A stretch of DNA of 64,000 nt from Natrialbaceae archaeon AArc-T1-2. GTDB taxonomy: Archaea; Halobacteriota; Halobacteria; Halobacteriales; Natrialbaceae. Positions 1,848 through 40,982 of the stretch are shown here, piece after piece; positions within the stretch are counted from its first letter, which is position 1; each line of letters begins with the position of its first letter. Made by a program: the position numbers and the translations under genes. The DNA is taken from contig NZ_CP127174.1 in NCBI RefSeq assembly GCF_030273315.1, forward strand, positions 2,170,001 to 2,234,000, in the 5' to 3' direction. The notes below the pieces were generated by a model. The model was not told the origin of the DNA. It saw only the letters and a program-made list of their open reading frames with translations, and made no database searches.

Positions 1848-3179
1848 TCAGTCCGATCGCTCACGGACGACCAGTTCGATCGGCTCCGACGGCGACAGCG
1901 TCGTCGATAGCCCAAGGTCGACCGTCCTGGACTGGTCGGGTGCCAGCTCGAAGCGGTACCGGCGGGCGATCGTCGCGACGGCCAGCCGGAGGGTGAGCGT
2001 CGCCAGCCGGCGGCCGATACAGGAGCGCGGGCCGACGCCGAAGGGGACGTACGCGAACTCCTCGGCCGGGACGTCCTCGTCGGCCCACCGTTCCGGACGG
2101 AACTGCTCGGGTTCGTCCCACCAGCGCTCGTCGCGGTGGAGCGTGTAGACGGGCAACAACAGCTCCGTGCCGGCCGGCACCTCATAGCCCCGGATCGTGA
2201 CGTCCGCGTTCGGCTCGCGCCAGAGTTCGAACACCGGCGGGTAGAGCCGGAGCGTCTCGTCGACGACTGACGCGACGTAGGAGTCCGGCCCCGGCGATGA
2301 AAGCGAGGGCTCGCCCTCGAGGTCGTCGACTTCGCTCGCCAGTCTCTCGGCGACCTCGGGCGTCCGGGCGAGCGAGAACCACGCGAACTCGAGGGCGGTC
2401 GCCGTCGGCCCGTGGCCGGCGAAAAGAAGCGTGAACAGCTGGTCTTTCAGCTCCTGGTCGGAGAGCTCTCCCTCGTCGGCCGCGTCGACGAGGGCCCCGA
2501 GCACGTCGAAACCCGCCGATTCGGTCTCGCCGTCCCCCTCGCGTCGGTCGGCGATAGCCCGCTCGAGCGTCCCGTCGAACCGGTCGACGGCGGCGTCGAA
2601 CCGGCGGTTCGTCCGCGTGGGCACCCAGTCGGGGACGAACAGCGCGGGCATCTCGAAGCGATCCGCCATCGCCGCGACGAGTTCGTTCGTGGCCGCCGAC
2701 AGCGGTTCGTACCCGTCGCCGAACAGCGTCGCGCCGAAGATCGAGGCGGTCAGCGTTCGCATCTCCGCGCCGACGTCGATCCGCTGGCCGTCCTCCCAGC
2801 GGTCGACGTGACGGCGGGTCTCGGCGACGATCTCGTCGGCGAAACTCGAGACCCGCCGTGCGTCGAAGGCGGGCTCGAGACTCGACCGGATGCGACGCCA
2901 CTGCTCACCTTCGGCCGAGATCACCGCCGTCTCCGCCACGTCGGCAAGCGCCTCGCTCAACACGTCCGCCTTCCGGAATCGGTCGCTCTCGCTCAACAGC
3001 ACTCGTTCGAACGCCGCCGGGTGGGTCACGAGGTAGGGCTCCCGCCGGAGTATCCGCATCCGGACGACGTCGCCCTCGCTCGCGGCCCGTTCGGTGACCC
3101 CCCACGGATCGCGGGCCATCCCGAGCGCGTTTCCCACGACTGGCAACCCCTCGACGGCCGGAACGTCTGATTCGCTCAT
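1848..3179 (-). CDS. cytochrome P450
   Basis: Soluble P450 monooxygenase of 443 residues. Readable landmarks in order: I-helix AGHGPTA (the usual acid/Thr pair of AGxxT is altered to G-P-T), K-helix ETLR, FRPERW, and the haem loop FGVGPRSCIGRR, whose Cys ligates haem. The ATG at 3179 (start MSESDVPAVEG) is chosen because upstream codons give an Arg-rich stretch unlike any P450. The substrate is unknown. It is divergent from a Bat-type regulator at 3263, with only 83 bp between them, so co-regulation is plausible. No ferredoxin or reductase gene is adjacent. Confidence 0.93.
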   Translation of the reverse strand: MSESDVPAVEGLPVVGNALGMARDPWGVTERAASEGDVVRMRILRREPYLVTHPAAFERVLLSESDRFRKADVLSEALADVAETAVISAEGEQWRRIRSSLEPAFDARRVSSFADEIVAETRRHVDRWEDGQRIDVGAEMRTLTASIFGATLFGDGYEPLSAATNELVAAMADRFEMPALFVPDWVPTRTNRRFDAAVDRFDGTLERAIADRREGDGETESAGFDVLGALVDAADEGELSDQELKDQLFTLLFAGHGPTATALEFAWFSLARTPEVAERLASEVDDLEGEPSLSSPGPDSYVASVVDETLRLYPPVFELWREPNADVTIRGYEVPAGTELLLPVYTLHRDERWWDEPEQFRPERWADEDVPAEEFAYVPFGVGPRSCIGRRLATLTLRLAVATIARRYRFELAPDQSRTVDLGLSTTLSPSEPIELVVRERSD

Positions 3180-29076: not shown

Positions 29077-30354
29077 TTAGGCGGCGTACTCGACGGTCTC
29101 GACACGGACCGCCACCGACTCGCCGGTTCGGTCCTCGATCCGGTCTGCGACGTCGCTTGCGAACGCGTCGGAGTCGGCCTCGCCCTCTTCGGCGAGGACG
29201 ATCGTCACCGTCCGCGGACCGGTAAACGGCGACAGATCCCCGTACTGAGTCTGGATCGAGACGGCACTGAGGTTCTCGTAGGCGGGGTCCTCGAGCGTCT
29301 CGTCCGTGGCACTCGCGACCGACCTGTCGACGGCGACCTGTTCGGCCGTGGCGACGCCGACCGAGAGCGTGAGTCCAACGACGACGATCGCGAGGATGCC
29401 GACGCTCACGAGCGACCGGTCGGTGGCTCGATTCCGGTCGGGACGCTCTTTCTGCCGGTAGCCGAACGACAGCAGGACGGCGAGGACGGCGAGGTTGATC
29501 AGGATCATCGTCACGACCAGCAAGGTCGCCGTCCCGATCGCGAGCGCCGGCTCGAGCCAGGCGATCGAGAGCCCGGTCGCAGCCGCCGTCGGGATCAACG
29601 CGGCGGCGATCATGACGCCGATGATCGAGGTCGGCCCCTTCGTCGTCAGCCCGATCCCGGCGGCTGCCCCGGCGGCCAGCCCGACGACCAGCGAGAGCGC
29701 GTTCGGAGCGAGCCGCACGCCGAACAGCTCGAGCGTGGACAGCTCGAGCGTGTCCGGGGTGAAGCCACCGAACCGGAACCCGAAACCGAGTACCGCCGCG
29801 GCCCCGACCGCGAGTCCGAGACCGTACAGCTGCATCCAGAGGCTGTCGACGATCATCTTCCGATCGCTCGTCACGAAACCGACGCTCGCGGTGAGCGCTG
29901 GCCCGATGATCGGCGCGATCACCATCGAGCCGACGACGATCGCTGGCGAGTCGAGCAACAACCCGGCGGTTGCGATCAGCGCGCTGCAGACCATCAACGC
30001 AACGTAGGACATCGTATCGCGGCTCAGGTCCCGCGCTTTGGTGCGTAACTCGACGCCAGTTAGGGGCTCGTACTCGCCCGCGTATCGCTCCTCGAGCAGC
30101 TCTGCGGTCTCGGTTACCGCCGTCTCGGTGCTCCCCACGATCGTGTACTCCCCCGTCTCTATCCCGCGCTCCTCGAGGGCATCGAGGACGTTCCCGACGG
30201 CGTTGCTCGGTACCGGAACCTCGAGTAACACCATCTCTCGATGGTCGCTCCTGTCCTCGAGCGAGAGCGTGACGAACGTCAGATCCGCGTCCGCGAGCAC
30301 CTCGCGGGCCGCCTCGAGGTCGTCGCGGGCGACGGCGATCCGGAGGAGACGCAC
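29077..30354 (-). CDS. TIGR00341/DUF389 membrane protein (copy 1)
   Basis: A 425-residue protein. A soluble N-terminal ferredoxin-like part (residues 1-120) opens VRLLRIAVARDDLEA; a DUF389 bundle of about six helices follows with [21 protein letters not shown] and [19 protein letters not shown]; and a C-terminal soluble tail ends it. Function unknown. The GTG at 30354 is chosen because the paralogue at 36256-37545 begins with the same pattern (VRLVQLTIP) also from GTG. Confidence 0.88.
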   Translation of the reverse strand: MRLLRIAVARDDLEAAREVLADADLTFVTLSLEDRSDHREMVLLEVPVPSNAVGNVLDALEERGIETGEYTIVGSTETAVTETAELLEERYAGEYEPLTGVELRTKARDLSRDTMSYVALMVCSALIATAGLLLDSPAIVVGSMVIAPIIGPALTASVGFVTSDRKMIVDSLWMQLYGLGLAVGAAAVLGFGFRFGGFTPDTLELSTLELFGVRLAPNALSLVVGLAAGAAAGIGLTTKGPTSIIGVMIAAALIPTAAATGLSIAWLEPALAIGTATLLVVTMILINLAVLAVLLSFGYRQKERPDRNRATDRSLVSVGILAIVVVGLTLSVGVATAEQVAVDRSVASATDETLEDPAYENLSAVSIQTQYGDLSPFTGPRTVTIVLAEEGEADSDAFASDVADRIEDRTGESVAVRVETVEYAA

Positions 30355-30436
30355 GGAACGTTCGAGAACGGGTATCGGGAAAAACCTCTGCCATGCGCTC
30401 GCCCGGGATTGTTCGGTGCCGGACGAAGGTTCGACG

Positions 30437-30886
30437 CTAGGGCAAGCGAACGACCGAGAGCCAGAACTCTTCGAGCGATCGGATCGCGTCGATGAACCCG
30501 TCGGGGTCGACGGGCTTTCTGAGGTAGGCGTTGGCACAGAGTTCGTACGACCTGACGACGTCGTCGTGTGCGTCCGAACTCGTCAGGACGATCACCGGAA
30601 TCGTCTGAAGATTGGAATCGTTTCTGATCTCTTCGAGCACCTCCTCGCCGTTTTTTCGAGGGAGATTCAGATCGAGCAGAATAATCGCCGGACGCGGTGC
30701 GTCGACGTAGTCGCCGCGCTGGTGACAGAACTCGAGTGCGTCGACCCCATCCTCGACGACGTGTAAATTGTTCGCAATGCTCCCATCTTTGAACGCCTCC
30801 CGTGTGAGTCGGACGTCGCCGGGATTGTCTTCGACGAGAAGGATGTCAACCGGATCTGGCCCGTCTTGGCCGCTCATTGTGTTCAC
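30437..30886 (-). CDS. stand-alone receiver-domain response regulator
   Basis: A 149-residue CheY-like receiver of the Rcp1 type with no output domain. The acidic pair lies in LLVEDNPGDVRL, the phospho-acceptor Asp in IILLDLNLPRKNGEEVLEE, and the switch Thr/Lys in IVLTSSD and LRKPVDPDGF. Its start lies inside the 3' end of the upstream histidine kinase gene (overlap of up to 41 bases), so they form a two-component operon. An ATG three codons later (MSGQDGPDP) is an alternative start. Confidence 0.92.
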   Translation of the reverse strand: MNTMSGQDGPDPVDILLVEDNPGDVRLTREAFKDGSIANNLHVVEDGVDALEFCHQRGDYVDAPRPAIILLDLNLPRKNGEEVLEEIRNDSNLQTIPVIVLTSSDAHDDVVRSYELCANAYLRKPVDPDGFIDAIRSLEEFWLSVVRLP

Positions 30887-33149: not shown

Positions 33150-34190
33150 TCAAGGCGTGACGACCGCCCGGCCCTCGATCTCGCCGTGCTCGAGCCGCTC
33201 GGCGACGGTGTTTATCTCCTCGAGATCGTACCGGTCGGTGTGTAACTCGACGTCGCCGCGTTCGACCAGCGCGACCAGTTCCTGGAGTTCGGTGTACTGA
33301 CCCACGAGCGTTCCCCGGTAGGAGAACTCGCCGTCGACCAGCGCCTGGCAGGGTTCGTGGATGTGGCCGCCGTAGCCGATCACGTGGTGGTCGCCGCCGG
33401 CGGCGACGATCTCGGGTGCGTAGCCGGCCGTCTCGTCGGTGCCGACGAAGTCGAGCACCTGCTGGGCGCCCTCGTCGTCGGTGAGGTCGGCGATGACGTC
33501 GGGGAGGTCCTGCTCGCTCGAGTCGACGGTCTCGGTGACACCGAAGTTCTCGGCCAGTTCGAGGGCCTCGTCTTTGACGTCGACGGCGACGACGTCGGCG
33601 GCGCTCATCGCCTCGAGACACTGGATCCCGATGTGTCCGAGTCCACCGATGCCGATGGCGACGGCGGTGTCGCCGGGGTTCAGCTCGTCGACGGCCTTCT
33701 TGGCGGCGTGGTAGGCGGTGATGCCGGCGTCGGCGTGGGGGGCGATCTCGGTCGGGTCGACGCCATCGGGAAGCGGAATGACCGCCCGTTCGTTGGTCAG
33801 CAGGTACTCGGCGAAACCCCCGTCGGTGGTGAGCCCGTTGAAGGCCATGTTCTCGCAGTACATGTCCTCACCCAGCCGGCAGGGTCGACAGATACCACAC
33901 GTTTGGACGGGGTGACAGATGACCGGGTCGCCCTCTTCGACGAGGGTGACTTCGTCGCCGATCTTGGCGACGATTCCCGCATTCTCGTGGCCCAGCGTCA
34001 TCGGTAGCTCCTGTGGGGCGTAGTCGGTCCACATCCCCTCGATGATGTGGTTGTCCGTCTGGCACCAGCCCGCGCCCTCGACCTCGACGACGACGTCGTC
34101 GGACCGCTCGGCCGTCGGCCGGTCGACCTCGTCGATCGAGAGGGCGTCGCTCATGTCGTCGGTGTACTCGTGGAGTCTCGCGGCGTGCAT
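33150..34190 (-). CDS. zinc-dependent alcohol dehydrogenase
   Basis: A 346-residue MDR-family NAD(P)-dependent enzyme. Catalytic zinc ligands are in GAGWCQTDNHIIEG and GHENAG. The structural zinc loop CGICRPCRLGEDMYCENM has its four cysteines. The nucleotide-binding fold has IGIGGLGHIGIQCLEAM. The N-terminus and the active-site segment resemble secondary-alcohol dehydrogenases found with propane monooxygenases. It is divergent from the amidohydrolase/DUF59 pair, suggesting a shared pathway for 2-propanol/acetone-type metabolism; that is inference. Confidence 0.92.
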   Translation of the reverse strand: MHAARLHEYTDDMSDALSIDEVDRPTAERSDDVVVEVEGAGWCQTDNHIIEGMWTDYAPQELPMTLGHENAGIVAKIGDEVTLVEEGDPVICHPVQTCGICRPCRLGEDMYCENMAFNGLTTDGGFAEYLLTNERAVIPLPDGVDPTEIAPHADAGITAYHAAKKAVDELNPGDTAVAIGIGGLGHIGIQCLEAMSAADVVAVDVKDEALELAENFGVTETVDSSEQDLPDVIADLTDDEGAQQVLDFVGTDETAGYAPEIVAAGGDHHVIGYGGHIHEPCQALVDGEFSYRGTLVGQYTELQELVALVERGDVELHTDRYDLEEINTVAERLEHGEIEGRAVVTP

Positions 34191-34218
34191 GGGTCCACGT
34201 TGCGAGTCAACACACGGC

Positions 34219-34227
34219 AATAAAAAT
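34219..34227 (-). promoter_or_regulatory. TATA-like box of the alcohol dehydrogenase gene
   Basis: On the minus strand ATTTTTATT lies 29-37 bp before the ATG at 34190, implying a leader of only a few bases. Confidence 0.5.
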
Positions 34228-34408
34228 CCTCGCGCCCGGCAGGCCGTTCCCGCCGATTTCGCGGGGCGGTACGCCCGACCGGTCCCGATCAAGCCGTCGT
34301 TTCCTCGCGAGGCGACGGCGTCCTCGAGACGGCCACGAGTAACGTCGTATTGGTGGAATTGTACGGACTTGGCGAGGGTCACGCTCGCTGAGAGCCAGGG
34401 AAAGAGTG

Positions 34409-35497
34409 ATGGACTATGGTGTGTATTCGCATGCCACAATGTACCACCAGAACGGCGAGGACGTGTTCGTCGTCGACGCACACGTCCACCTGTGGGATGC
34501 GACCGAAGAGAACATCACACACAACGGGGGCGAGGAGTTCATCCAGTGCTTCTATGACTACCACACAACGTTCACGCCGGAAGAGCGCGAGTGGGAGATG
34601 TCGGAGTATCGATACTATGGCCCCGATCGGATGGTCGAGGACCTCTTCGGCAACGCCGCCGCCGACATGGCCATCTTCCAGCCGACGTACCTCACCGATT
34701 TCTACGAGGAGGGGTTCAACACAACCGAACAAAACGCCGAACTCGCGACCGAGTATCCCGAGCGGTTCGTCCTCAACGGTACCTTCGATCCCCGGGACGG
34801 CGAGGAGGGCCTCGAGTACTTAGAGCAGCTCCACGACACCTACGACATCCCGGGCGTGAAACTGTACACCGCCGAGTGGCGAGACGACTCGAAGGGGTGG
34901 CGACTCGACGACGAGGAGGCCTTCGAGTTCTTAGAGAAGTGTGCCGAACTCGGCATCGAGAACATCCACCCGCACAAGGGGCCGACGATCCGGCCGCTGA
35001 ACCGCGACGCCTTCGACGTGAAAGACGTCGACGATGCCGCGTCGTCGTTCCCCGAACTCAACTTTATCGTCGAACACGTCGGGCTTCCCAGGCTCGATGA
35101 CTTCTGCTGGATCGCCGCCCAGGAGACCAACGTCTACGGCGGCCTCGCGGTCGCTGCGCCGTTCGCCCAGAATCGACCGGGCAAGTTCTCGGAGATCATG
35201 TCCGAACTGCTGTGGTGGCTCGGCGAGGACCGCCTGCTCTTTGGCTCGGACTACGCACTCTGGAACCCCGACTGGCTCGTCGAGGAAGTGATGGAGGCCG
35301 AACTCACCGCGGAACACCGCGCGGAGTACGGCGTCGAATGGGACGTGGAGACGAAAAAGAAGGTGATGGGCGAAAACGCCGCCGAACTGTACGACATCGA
35401 CGTCGAGGAGAAGAAACGCCAGTTCCAAGAAGACGAAATCAGCACCGAGTTCGGACTCGAGGATCACTACGGCGAACCCGCGGCGGCCGACGACTGA
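34409..35497 (+). CDS. amidohydrolase-2 protein of diiron-monooxygenase cluster type
   Basis: A 362-residue TIM-barrel protein. VVDAHVHLWD gives the first metal HxH, GVKLYTAEW the strand-4 Lys region, HPHKGPTI and FIVEHVGLPRL the later His positions, and LFGSDYALWNPDW the final Asp. The opening MDYGVYSHATMYHQNGEDVF and overall pattern match amidohydrolase-family proteins encoded beside propane/acetone monooxygenases (prm/mim clusters), thought to aid maturation. The ATG at 34409 is preferred over the GTG directly before it. The TGA overlaps the next ATG. Confidence 0.85.
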   Translation: MDYGVYSHATMYHQNGEDVFVVDAHVHLWDATEENITHNGGEEFIQCFYDYHTTFTPEEREWEMSEYRYYGPDRMVEDLFGNAAADMAIFQPTYLTDFYEEGFNTTEQNAELATEYPERFVLNGTFDPRDGEEGLEYLEQLHDTYDIPGVKLYTAEWRDDSKGWRLDDEEAFEFLEKCAELGIENIHPHKGPTIRPLNRDAFDVKDVDDAASSFPELNFIVEHVGLPRLDDFCWIAAQETNVYGGLAVAAPFAQNRPGKFSEIMSELLWWLGEDRLLFGSDYALWNPDWLVEEVMEAELTAEHRAEYGVEWDVETKKKVMGENAAELYDIDVEEKKRQFQEDEISTEFGLEDHYGEPAAADD

Positions 35498-36252
35498 TGG
35501 CGGGACCGCGGCGAGACACGGTGCTCGAGGCCCTCGAGCCCGTAACGGACCCGGAGCTGGATCGCTCGATCGTCGAACTGGAGTACGTCGAGGAGATCGA
35601 CGTCGACGGCGAGGCGGTGACGGTGACGATCACGCTCCCGACGGCGTGGTGTTCGCCGGCCTTTGCCTGGATGATGACCGTCGACGCCCGCGACGCACTC
35701 GAGGCGCTGCCGTCGGTCGAAACGGCGACGGTCGTCCTCGAAGATCACATGCACGAAACGGAGATCACCCGCGGCGTCAACGAGCGACGTTCCTTCGAAG
35801 AGACGTTTCCCGACGCCGACGGCGGCGTCGAGGCCGTCCGGGCGGAACTGGACCGCAAGGCCCGGATCGCCCGCCAGTACGACGCCGTCGAGGCGCTGCT
35901 CGAGGCCGGTCTCGAGCCGGCACAGGTCGTCGACCTCCGACTCGGTGACCTCGAGGGGATCGGCGACGGTGAGAAAGCGACGGTGTACCTCCACGACCGG
36001 GCCGTGGCAGTGACCGTCCCCGCAGCCCCGCTCGTGTCCTACCTCGAGAAAGCGCGCGAGACCGGCGTCGCCACGGACGCCGACGACGTGCTGTTCAGGA
36101 CGCCCGAGGGAGAGGTCGTCGACCCCGGCGGGTTCGAGGTCGTCCACCGCCGGGGACGACTCGCGAAGGTGAACATGTCCGGTCAGGCCGGGATCTGTAG
36201 CGGCCTCCACGAAGCGAGACGTGGACGTCTCGAGGAATCCACCGGTGATTGA
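35497..36252 (+). CDS. DUF59 (MIP18-like) metal-cluster assembly protein
   Basis: A 251-residue protein. The N-terminal DUF59 domain (residues 1-90) reads LEALEPVTDPELDRSIVELEYVEEI and has a Cys in TLPTAWCSPAFAWMM, where family members carry their reactive cysteine. The rest (95-251) is a partner-specific extension with a CSGLHEARRGR tail. It overlaps the amidohydrolase gene (TGATG), so the two products are made together. Iron insertion into a partner metalloenzyme is the likely role; the enzyme itself is absent from the window. Confidence 0.82.
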   Translation: MAGPRRDTVLEALEPVTDPELDRSIVELEYVEEIDVDGEAVTVTITLPTAWCSPAFAWMMTVDARDALEALPSVETATVVLEDHMHETEITRGVNERRSFEETFPDADGGVEAVRAELDRKARIARQYDAVEALLEAGLEPAQVVDLRLGDLEGIGDGEKATVYLHDRAVAVTVPAAPLVSYLEKARETGVATDADDVLFRTPEGEVVDPGGFEVVHRRGRLAKVNMSGQAGICSGLHEARRGRLEESTGD

Positions 36253-36255
36253 AAA

Positions 36256-37545
36256 TCACCGACCGACGACCTCGACGTATCGCACCTCGACTTCGACGGA
36301 TTCGTCAGTGTGCTGGTCGACCCGGTCGTGTATCCGTTCGGTGAGGTCGGGATACTGTTCGCCGGGTGGCCCACCGATCGTGACCACGACGCGCTCGGGA
36401 CTCTGGAACGGGTAGTCGTCGCCGAGGGTGACCTGGAGGTCGATGAGCTGTAGCTCCTCGTCTTCCGCCTCGAGGAGGTCCTCGACGTCCTCGCGGGCGT
36501 CCTCCTCGAAGGTGCCGGCGAGATACGAGGTGTAGGTGATCCCGGCGAGAAACGCAGAGAGGATCAAGACGACGAGCGCGAGCGCGCCGATCTGTCGTCG
36601 AACCCGCCGCTGGGTCACGTCGAGGTCGAACAGGCTCTCGGGGCGATAGCCGGCGTACCACAGCGTGGCCAGCCCCGCGAGGTTGACCGAGAGCACGTTG
36701 ACGAACACGAGTACCGTCGAGCCGATCGCGGCCGTCGGTTGGCCGAACGCGATCGCGATGCCCGCTGCTGCGGCGGGCGGGATGAGCGCCGCGGCGATCA
36801 TGACGCCCACGAGCGCGACCGAGACGCCGGTCGAGATGCTCAGGATGCCGGCGACGCCAGCGCCCAGCGCGATCACGAGCGAGAGCAGATCCGGCGCGAG
36901 TCGCTCGGCGATCTCGTCGACGGCCGCGATGTTCATTCCGGGTGGGACGATGTTGCCCATCCTGACCAGCCACGCGAAGATGGCTGCGGAACCGATCGCG
37001 AGACAGACACCGAGTATCTGGTACTTCGCGCCGCGGTACAGCAGGTCCGGTTCGTCGAGCACCGTTCCGATGCCCGCCCCCAGTGCGGGACCGATCAGCG
37101 GCGCAATCACCATCGAGCCGACGACGACCGCCGGCGAGTCGAGCAACAGGCCGGCCGTGGCCACCAGCGCGCTGACGACCGTCAGCGTCACGTAGATGCC
37201 AAAGGTTGGCGTCAGGTCCTCGGCGTGTGTCTGCAGTTCCTGGCGCGAGATCCGATCCTCGCCGACGCTGCCCTCTGCGTACTCCTCGCGCAACGCCTCG
37301 AACTTCCGGGAGACGACCGTCTCGGCGTCGACGACGACCGTGTAGGAGTCCTCCCCGATTCCCTCGTCGTGGATCGCATCAAGCACCGACTCGACCGCCT
37401 GGGAGGGCAACGGAAAGTAGACGACCGCCGTGTACTCCCGGCCGCTCGTCTCGTCGGTGACGACGTAGTCGATGCCCTCGTCTTCGAGCACCTCGAGGAT
37501 CGTCTCTCGTTTGCCCGTCGGAATCGTCAACTGTACGAGACGCAC
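36256..37545 (-). CDS. TIGR00341/DUF389 membrane protein (copy 2)
   Basis: A 429-residue paralogue of the protein at 29077-30354 with the same layout: soluble start [20 protein letters not shown], a DUF389 helix bundle with [21 protein letters not shown] and [20 protein letters not shown], and an acidic soluble tail. It starts at a GTG. Its 3' end meets the DUF59 gene 3 bp away, convergent. Function unknown; two copies within 7 kb but not in tandem. Confidence 0.88.
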
Positions 37546-39532: not shown

Positions 39533-39700
39533 TTGTCAGTGTCAGTGAACTCCGCCTCTGCCGACCGTAGTTAGTCGGACGAGACAAATCCCCGGTTCGG
39601 CGTTGACGAGACGCGTCGCGTCTCGTTCGCACATCAGGTTTCGCAGAAACCTGAGGACGTCACCGTTCCTGACTTCAGGGCGAGTTGACTGTCGCCCGTC
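39515..39700 (-). ncRNA. candidate omega RNA (reRNA) at the tnpB 3' end
   Basis: TnpB proteins use an RNA transcribed from the 3' end of tnpB through the right end, with the guide outside the element. Here this interval holds a 9-bp hairpin over the tnpB stop codon (39634-39654), a 10-bp palindrome (39606-39626, ACGAGACGCG and its complement) and the right-end hairpin. The limits are approximate and expression is unproven. Confidence 0.45.
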
Positions 39701-40845
39701 CGCCGAGACGACTGTAGGCCCCGACGGACAAACCGCCACCCAACATTCTTTGCACCCACGTAATCCGCATTCTGTGTTGCACCGCAGGATTCACACTCAA
39801 ACTCCGCCTGTTGCACCCTATTCCCTTCGCTCGTATGCCCACACTCGGGACACCGACGACTCGTGTTCTTCGGACTGACAAGCTCGACACGAATCCCGTG
39901 GGCTTCAGCCTTGTACTCCACAAGGTCAACGAGTTGCCGGTGTGCCCACTGGTGGAACTCCTTGACAGGTGGCGCACGCTCTCGAATGTGCTTCAGGTTC
40001 TCGAAGGCGATGTATTCGCAGTCGTGTGTGCGTGCTTCTTCGAGAATCTGATTAGCGACCTGATGAAGTTGGTCACGGAGATACCGTGATTCTCTCCCAC
40101 TCATCTGCTGGATCGTCCGATGGGCAGATTGTGTCCCAGTCTGCTGAAGGTTCCCACGGATCCGTTCGAACTCCCGGTGGCGGTGCCTGAGTTCTCTCCC
40201 CGATGCGAAGTACGCAGTGCTGGTGGTGGCGATGTTGACGATGCCGAGGTCAACGCCGAGAACTGTCCTGTCCTCGTCGTCATCCTGTTTTTCGACCTGC
40301 TTCTCGGGCTTCGGCTTGCGAAATCCGAGGTGGAGGTAGTAGTCACCACCACGTTTTGACAGCGTAGACTCCGTTACTTCCCACTCGTCATCGGTGAGGT
40401 ATTCGTATTGATACCCGCCTTCTTCGTCGGGGAGGTTCAGGTCACACCGAATCCGCCCATCGACGGTGGAGAGCGATACAGACCCGTCATCAAACAGCGT
40501 CATCGTCCGGGTGTCGTATTTCACCGTGTTACTGGTAAACTCCGGTCGAGACGTTTTGTAGTGTTCGTCAAGGTCTTCGATTGCTTCGACACCATCGAGT
40601 GCGGCTGCGGCCTGATGGGTGGCGAGGATTGCGTGCTGGCTCCCGAGACGTGTTTCCTCCAACACCGTGTCGTAGGCGAGGTCCTGGAGGTAGGTTTTCC
40701 GCGTCTCACCAACGTCCCATCCGATGCGGCTACTGATGTTACAGGCAGTTTTCCACTCAGTGATGGTGGCGTCGAGCAAGTCCTGTTGCTCGTCGGTGAG
40801 GATGGGTCGGGTGATTGCGGTACGTCTCAGGTAGTCGTCTGCCAC
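39634..40845 (-). CDS. tnpB: TnpB (IS1341-type OrfB), RuvC nuclease
   Basis: RNA-guided nuclease-like protein of 403 residues. The RuvC acidic residues are in VLGVDLGIVNIAT and IAFENLKHIRE; a zinc finger has CPECGH and CESCGA; the last RuvC Asp is in NADYVGAKN. All appear intact, so it may be active. The GTG at 40845 (start MADDYLRRTAITRPIL) is the usual N-terminus; the longer reading runs into the IS left-end hairpins. The C-terminal tail of about 25 residues overlaps the putative guide-RNA region. Confidence 0.92.
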   Translation of the reverse strand: MADDYLRRTAITRPILTDEQQDLLDATITEWKTACNISSRIGWDVGETRKTYLQDLAYDTVLEETRLGSQHAILATHQAAAALDGVEAIEDLDEHYKTSRPEFTSNTVKYDTRTMTLFDDGSVSLSTVDGRIRCDLNLPDEEGGYQYEYLTDDEWEVTESTLSKRGGDYYLHLGFRKPKPEKQVEKQDDDEDRTVLGVDLGIVNIATTSTAYFASGRELRHRHREFERIRGNLQQTGTQSAHRTIQQMSGRESRYLRDQLHQVANQILEEARTHDCEYIAFENLKHIRERAPPVKEFHQWAHRQLVDLVEYKAEAHGIRVELVSPKNTSRRCPECGHTSEGNRVQQAEFECESCGATQNADYVGAKNVGWRFVRRGLQSSRRTGDSQLALKSGTVTSSGFCET

Positions 40846-40910
40846 GAGTTTCAATAGATGATAGAGGTACTTAATGTTTCGTGGTATGTGGCGGCAAGTG
40901 TCGGCTTCAA

Positions 40911-40982
40911 CCCCGCCCACGGTGTTGACGCAAATCGGAGATTTGCGAAAGCCGAAAACCGAAGGTTTTCGGAAGGGCGGGG
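40911..40982. repeat. nested three-stem structure at the IS left end
   Basis: CCCCGCCC (40911-40918) pairs with GGGCGGGG (40975-40982). Inside are two perfect hairpins: CGCAAATC-GGA-GATTTGCG (40929-40947) and CCGAAAACC-GAA-GGTTTTCGG (40952-40972). The three stems make a compact cloverleaf-like fold. It lies just upstream of tnpB, where subterminal hairpins recognised by TnpA belong; three-stem forms are richer than the single hairpin usual in this group. Confidence 0.85.

Follow-up and report, generated by a model that had tools for sequence, protein, structure and literature searches.

In bacteria, the gene set that concerns us here lies behind the genes of group V soluble diiron monooxygenases (SDIMOs): one report places it after prmABCD and mimABCD (PMC4428276), and the legend of a figure in another marks an amidohydrolase together with an iron-sulfur assembly protein (Fig. 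5 of PMC9213486). In the proteome of the acetone-degrading actinobacterium Actinomycetospora chiangmaiensis, a third report assigns 3.2% of the protein to the amidohydrolase of the Mim cluster, 3.8% to MimC and 4.0% to MimG, the amidohydrolase being about as abundant as the small subunit of the monooxygenase (PMC7176365). An abundance of this order is more in keeping with an enzyme than with a helper present in traces. No paper in the open-access literature that we searched treats the amidohydrolase and its DUF59 neighbor as a unit in its own right. Here we describe a haloarchaeal counterpart, a trio composed of a zinc alcohol dehydrogenase, an amidohydrolase-2 protein (AMH) and a DUF59 protein, which is encoded in a 64,000-nucleotide stretch of the genome of Natrialbaceae archaeon AArc-T1-2 (contig NZ_CP127174.1, positions 2,170,001 to 2,234,000; hereafter the window). 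It is well supported that this trio stands alone and that AMH pairs with DUF59, and on balance we lean slightly towards reading the trio as a self-contained catabolic module and not as the remnant of a monooxygenase cluster. The genome (3.36 Mb, three contigs, 99.2% complete) carries the trio in the following arrangement, given in window coordinates:

33150..34190, minus strand: zinc-dependent medium-chain alcohol dehydrogenase of 346 aa (P0003), recognized from its translation, Pfam and the closest solved chains
34191..34438, no strand: putative divergent promoter region between the dehydrogenase and AMH, partially conserved among related loci
34439..35497, plus strand: AMH, an amidohydrolase-2 (PF04909) TIM-barrel protein of 352 aa (P0002), recognized from Pfam, an AlphaFold2 model and conserved residues
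35497..36252, plus strand: DUF59/MIP18-type protein of 251 aa (P0001), with the DUF59 domain at about residues 1-100 and a C-terminal domain at about 105-250

The three gene families named in a preliminary description of the locus were all confirmed by Pfam profiles and are kept together far beyond chance. AMH matched Amidohydro_2 (PF04909) with E 5e-45 and 154.9 bits against a curated cut-off of 26.4, P0001 matched DUF59/FeS_assembly_P (PF01883) with E 5e-17 and 62.4 bits against a cut-off of 23.5, and P0003 matched ADH_N (3e-26) and ADH_zinc_N (1.5e-22). The same description had the genes adjacent and partly overlapping. Adjacency stands, as does an overlap of a single base between AMH and DUF59 (TGATG at 35495-35499), which is the only one within the trio; the apparent overlap of dehydrogenase and AMH originated in an over-extended open reading frame (33150-34481), since the dehydrogenase starts at 34190 on the opposite strand and diverges from AMH over about 250 bp. 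We set the AMH start at 34439 because in the relative L001 a stop comes after the alternative in-frame ATG at 34409 (alignment read by eye). The DUF59 gene starts at 35497, and the 346-aa frame beginning at 35212 is also over-extended.

The likeness to prm/mim clusters that was originally proposed is borne out. AMH shares 49-59% identity with the best bacterial plasmid proteins, which are the amidohydrolases of prm/mim clusters and are much closer to it than any solved decarboxylase; a nearer kinship with decarboxylases outside such clusters, which would have spoken against the comparison, was not found. In six annotated plasmids (from Aminobacter, Caballeronia, Paracoccus, Ponticoccus, Bradyrhizobium and Gemmobacter) the homologue follows monooxygenase genes in the order alpha, reductase, beta and coupling protein, and is itself followed by the DUF59 gene and GroEL; the stretch also contains an alcohol dehydrogenase gene. 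The group V clusters thus share with the archaeal locus the amidohydrolase, a DUF59 protein extended at its C-terminus in the same way, and the zinc alcohol dehydrogenase. They differ from it in two respects: the window genome lacks both PF02332 hydroxylase matches and a GroEL of that kind, and the dehydrogenase is divergent in most haloarchaea instead of co-directional.

Conservation of the pair was examined in 73 haloarchaeal loci (L001-L069, L073, L074, L076 and L112), a count that leaves out five bacterial loci and L109, which is the same place as L067. The DUF59 gene lies directly behind AMH, on the same strand and within 200 bp, in 73/73 loci, and a dehydrogenase occurs within 2 kb of AMH in 67/73 (65 divergent, 2 downstream). 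Among the six loci that depart from this pattern, L053, L068 and L074 begin at a contig end, L047 has its dehydrogenase at 2,018 bp from AMH, and no dehydrogenase was present in the examined stretch of L046 or L064. Clustering of neighbors in flanks of up to 10 kb revealed no further gene shared as widely as the trio in haloarchaea. In the bacterial phylum of G292 (Nitriliruptoraceae bacterium), AMH was present in 28/246 genomes, a DUF59 match adjoined it in all 28 carriers, and the dehydrogenase came next in the trio in 24 of them, mostly with 4-base overlaps indicative of a tight operon. AMH and DUF59 therefore form a near-obligate gene pair, which the alcohol dehydrogenase accompanies in most loci. 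Other bacteria carry orphan versions. Thermomicrobium roseum has an orphan trio with an IclR regulator upstream and with PF02332 genes on the same plasmid at a distance of about 370 kb, and Peribacillus and Rhizobium have an orphan AMH and DUF59 without the trio-type dehydrogenase. Around bacterial loci, whether or not the trio was complete, clustering recovered an IclR-type regulator in 9/25 and a glyoxalase-fold protein in 5/25, one member of each cluster, plus the Thermomicrobium IclR gene, having been verified with Pfam.

The pairing extends to more distant relatives. Haloarchaeal paralogues with 25-33% identity to AMH were sampled by fetching 20 of the 33 places listed at E up to 3e-26 (L179-L198), and a DUF59 gene was found directly downstream in 20/20 places, while a short-chain dehydrogenase occurred within 2.7 kb in 10/20. 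One more relative, L127 from the plasmid collection, shares its cluster with genes for thiolase and 2-oxoacid dehydrogenase. That DUF59 is kept with distant AMH paralogues argues that its partner is AMH and not the monooxygenase. By coordinates, the window genome holds six PF04909 and six PF01883 genes, of which the pair in the window is the only adjacent one; since the other five PF04909 genes have no adjoining DUF59, the pairing is specific to the AMH clade.

A profile search for the diiron hydroxylase (PF02332) gave no match in the genome of the window. Across 292 haloarchaeal genomes, AMH was present in 87 (distinct genomes with E below 1e-160) and PF02332 in three (G063, G094 and G216), with 0/87 AMH-bearing genomes matching PF02332. 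The three carriers encode PF02332 hydroxylase subunits (L116-L121) without an AMH of the trio clade. As a control, the same search was positive in 6/8 other records, among them all three whose annotation names a monooxygenase. The GroEL-type chaperonin of SDIMO clusters (MimG) was likewise absent at E 1e-50 from 31 tested AMH-bearing haloarchaeal genomes, that of the window included, whereas both bacterial controls (2/2) were positive. In the phylum of G292, PF02332 exceeded the cut-off in 9/28 AMH carriers and lay within about 6 kb of AMH in four (G358, G391, G423 and G488), so that its frequency among carriers differs between this bacterial sample and haloarchaea (9/28 vs 0/87, p 1e-6). The trio consequently occurs without an SDIMO in all sampled AMH-bearing haloarchaea and in most sampled AMH-bearing bacteria.

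These searches bear directly on the preliminary description, which had noted the absence of a monooxygenase from 64 kb and offered two explanations, an oxygenase encoded elsewhere or the use of the set by haloarchaea for another purpose. The absence holds for the diiron type, though not for oxygenases at large, given that the window encodes a cytochrome P450:

about 1848-3179, minus strand: cytochrome P450 (PF00067, E 1.5e-75), about 30 kb from the trio

The first explanation makes the genes maturation accessories for an SDIMO located elsewhere in the genome, and their position behind prmABCD/mimABCD in bacteria is what speaks for it. An SDIMO elsewhere in the window genome was rejected as a candidate for want of any PF02332 match. 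With no hydroxylase in the 87 AMH-bearing haloarchaea either, with the chaperonin missing from all 31 genomes and with most sampled AMH-bearing bacteria devoid of the monooxygenase, we regard this explanation as close to untenable. The genome-wide hunt that had been advised for a diiron monooxygenase and a dedicated chaperonin returned neither. The second explanation gains support, also from the bacteria. It had been reasoned that the comparison would fall if no genome with the three genes had a diiron oxygenase; this is the situation in haloarchaea but not in bacteria. The weak part of the original proposal was its premise that the genes serve the maturation of a monooxygenase, for the set occurs without one in archaea and in most of the bacteria sampled.

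The tree of AMH sequences is in agreement with a free-standing haloarchaeal set. All haloarchaeal AMH form one clade (support 100) outside the SDIMO-linked sequences, and SDIMO linkage requires at least five changes; the tree was built by a quick method and its support values are SH-aLRT only. Note that four rows (L111, L123, L070 and L072) were labeled as lacking an SDIMO without a genome-wide search, the plasmid alone having been searched for L111, and that L108 was labeled as linked even though its alpha-subunit frame, which continues into a second frame, may be broken.

The AlphaFold2 model of AMH (mean pLDDT 91.4) was compared with solved structures by VIA structural search. Its nearest fold was 3irs (Z 27.4), a protein of unknown function, followed by decarboxylases and hydrolases of PF04909 at Z of about 20-23. 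A profile search of solved chains similarly led to 3irs and, over short segments, to LigW decarboxylases, while a sequence search of the PDB with AMH alone returned chance matches to repeat proteins only. Known members of this group (2,6-dihydroxybenzoate and 5-carboxyvanillate decarboxylase, 2-pyrone-4,6-dicarboxylate hydrolase and 3irs) resemble AMH in the TIM barrel, in VIA Z of 20-27 and in the His/Asp ligand pattern, and differ from it in sharing 11-19% identity in structural alignments and in the pairing of AMH with DUF59. PF04909 decarboxylases and hydrolases use one metal. In alignments of 115 rows, from which duplicates, short pieces and rows with stops were left out, Lys141, His179 and His213 of AMH were invariant (115/115); Asp271 was present in 114 rows, Asp13 in 111 and His15 in 110, with four rows gapped at Asp13/His15. 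The model places the Lys on strand 4 and the His/Asp residues on strands 1, 5, 6 and 8. In the amidohydrolase superfamily, a ligand set of this kind could hold two metals.

This raises the question of whether AMH is itself the missing oxygenase. Three reports show that the PF04909 superfamily includes the dinuclear oxygenases AibH2, PtmU3 and SfbO (PMC10811679, PMC10401708, PMC7782822). Like AMH, these amidohydrolase-related oxygenases (ARO) have a partner gene for handling iron, and DUF59 could load iron into a two-metal site of AMH. Unlike them, AMH lacks the strand-8 His ligand: the position matching H340 of AibH2 (the His located three residues C-terminal to the Asp of strand 8), which was placed by motif and not by an alignment with AibH2, is Leu or Ile in 115/115 rows, and on this ground an AibH2-like oxygenase was set aside as unlikely. 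The partner of AMH is moreover a DUF59 protein and not a Rieske ferredoxin, and no Rieske-type family appeared among conserved neighbors in the clustering, PF00355 itself not having been searched. The folds nearest to AMH belong to members that are not oxygenases; the list of 50 structural neighbors of the model contained none of the ARO structures, a result that does not exclude them. Taken together, an oxygenase role of AMH is very improbable.

The model of the DUF59 protein (mean pLDDT 93.2) combines two parts. The first 100 residues match CIAO2B (Z 12.7-12.8) and other DUF59 structures, and Cys52 was found in 115/115 rows of the corresponding alignment, Cys234 in 114/115 and His84 in 108/115. 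The C-terminal half (window 35800-36250) had no Pfam match. In the full-length model it aligned with the first part of the catalytic domain of Cre (1drg; Z 10.4, rmsd 3.5, 100 residues), and it matched a profile of ten tyrosine recombinases from the same genome with an hhalign probability of 90.8, whereas two control profiles scored 0.5 and 5.4. In tyrosine recombinases the catalytic Arg sits in a GLRxxE motif. At the corresponding column 107/115 rows carry one of the five commonest letters, D, T, S, E or A, and recombinase activity is therefore not expected. The C-terminal domain thus appears to resemble an inactive tyrosine recombinase-like fold. P0001 is like the MIP18, CIAO2B, SufT and PaaD proteins in the fold of its N-terminal domain and the invariant Cys52, and is set apart from them by the added recombinase-like domain with its conserved Cys234 and by the position of its gene next to AMH.

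MIP18/SufT-type DUF59 proteins act in the assembly of iron-sulfur and other metal centers. This general role, together with the match to the CIAO2B fold, is compatible with a trio that matures or protects a different, unrecognized metalloenzyme encoded elsewhere. The distribution of DUF59 is less so, as it tracks AMH even to distant paralogues that have other dehydrogenases, which indicates AMH as the client, and no other neighbor is conserved. We find such a distant client improbable.

The dehydrogenase provides clues to the chemistry. The closest solved chains to P0003 are 1h2b (E 3e-97) and the secondary alcohol dehydrogenase ADH-A of Rhodococcus ruber (2xaa/3jv7, E 3e-59), and by sequence P0003 resembles an ADH-A-like secondary alcohol dehydrogenase. 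The window genome also encodes an acetone carboxylase operon (G000:C1 at about 913-919 kb; L223 8305-13723), with a gamma subunit (PF08882, E 1.6e-43), an alpha-like Hydantoinase_B protein and a beta subunit (E 5e-229 to the solved beta subunit 5svb), so the organism could make use of acetone with no oxygenase involved. A homologue of aldehyde ferredoxin oxidoreductase lies near this operon. On these grounds the trio might serve the use of 2-propanol and acetone, the dehydrogenase producing acetone, acetone carboxylase converting it to acetoacetate, and AMH and DUF59 acting on a side product. Yet more than 1 Mb separates the two operons. A strong gamma subunit (E up to 1e-40) occurs in nine genomes, five of which have the trio (one-sided p 0.09), and is lacking from 82/87 trio genomes. 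As an account of the trio we consider this route unlikely.

A self-contained catabolic module is the reading that we prefer, and the biochemical role that we infer for it is the following. Catalysis would rest with AMH, as a metal-dependent TIM-barrel enzyme (lyase, hydrolase or hydratase) whose substrate would be a small carbonyl compound. Its DUF59 partner may be a dedicated metal-center maturation factor or a subunit (Cys52, His84, Cys234), and the dehydrogenase would interconvert the alcohol and carbonyl forms of the AMH substrate. In prm/mim clusters the monooxygenase would feed this pre-existing module, for example along the path from propane to 2-propanol to acetone; outside them, the alcohol or ketone may be taken up directly. 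The kinship of the dehydrogenase, the acetone carboxylase, the abundance of the Mim amidohydrolase and the glyoxalase and IclR neighbors point to C3 alcohols or ketones, with no fixed reaction.

Several observations weigh against a self-contained module. The trio recurs beside SDIMO clusters in several bacterial lineages, which means that it is in some way functionally tied to the monooxygenase or to what that enzyme makes. P0001 has weak NCBIfam matches to the PaaD family, whose DUF59 proteins also accompany diiron enzymes, and a role in bacterial diiron maturation is possible. Since just three haloarchaeal genomes carry PF02332, its failure to co-occur with AMH there does not amount to a significant exclusion (p 0.56), and the absence of SDIMOs is weaker evidence among the 28 bacterial genomes, several of which come in short contigs, with no completeness figure. 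The neighbors of the trio in haloarchaea indicate no pathway. Acetone carboxylase was rejected as a general partner, there being no association across the class (trio in 6/24 haloarchaeal PF08882 carriers vs 87/292 genomes overall, Fisher p 0.82).

Other features of the region can be briefly listed. An element resembling CTGAAAAAGAGTAATGTG lies about 30-45 bases 5' of the AMH start (window about 34395-34415) and partly recurs among 12 related loci. DUF389 genes occur on both flanks, at window 29077-30537 and at 36256-37545 (minus strand). An open reading frame at 39634-40920 (minus strand) with a C-terminal zinc-finger pattern is presumably an IS200/IS605-type TnpB/OrfB protein.

The prm/mim clusters are studied for alkane cycling and the breakdown of pollutants, and two of their genes are mentioned without a function in the literature examined. 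A free-standing trio in organisms that lack such a monooxygenase makes this function testable by itself. It also offers AMH as a concrete client for a dedicated DUF59 protein, in a family whose targets are mostly unknown. A broader proposal, which we put forward tentatively and hold to be somewhat doubtful as a whole, is that these genes represent an unrecognized class of two-component enzymes that archaea and bacteria share: a TIM-barrel catalyst of PF04909 would need its own DUF59 assembly protein and, together with a dehydrogenase, would process small alcohols or ketones. The supposed accessories in prm/mim clusters would then be one member of this class, placed beside a monooxygenase several times in evolution, and the DUF59 protein may have gained a domesticated tyrosine-recombinase fold for docking or for the handling of metal.

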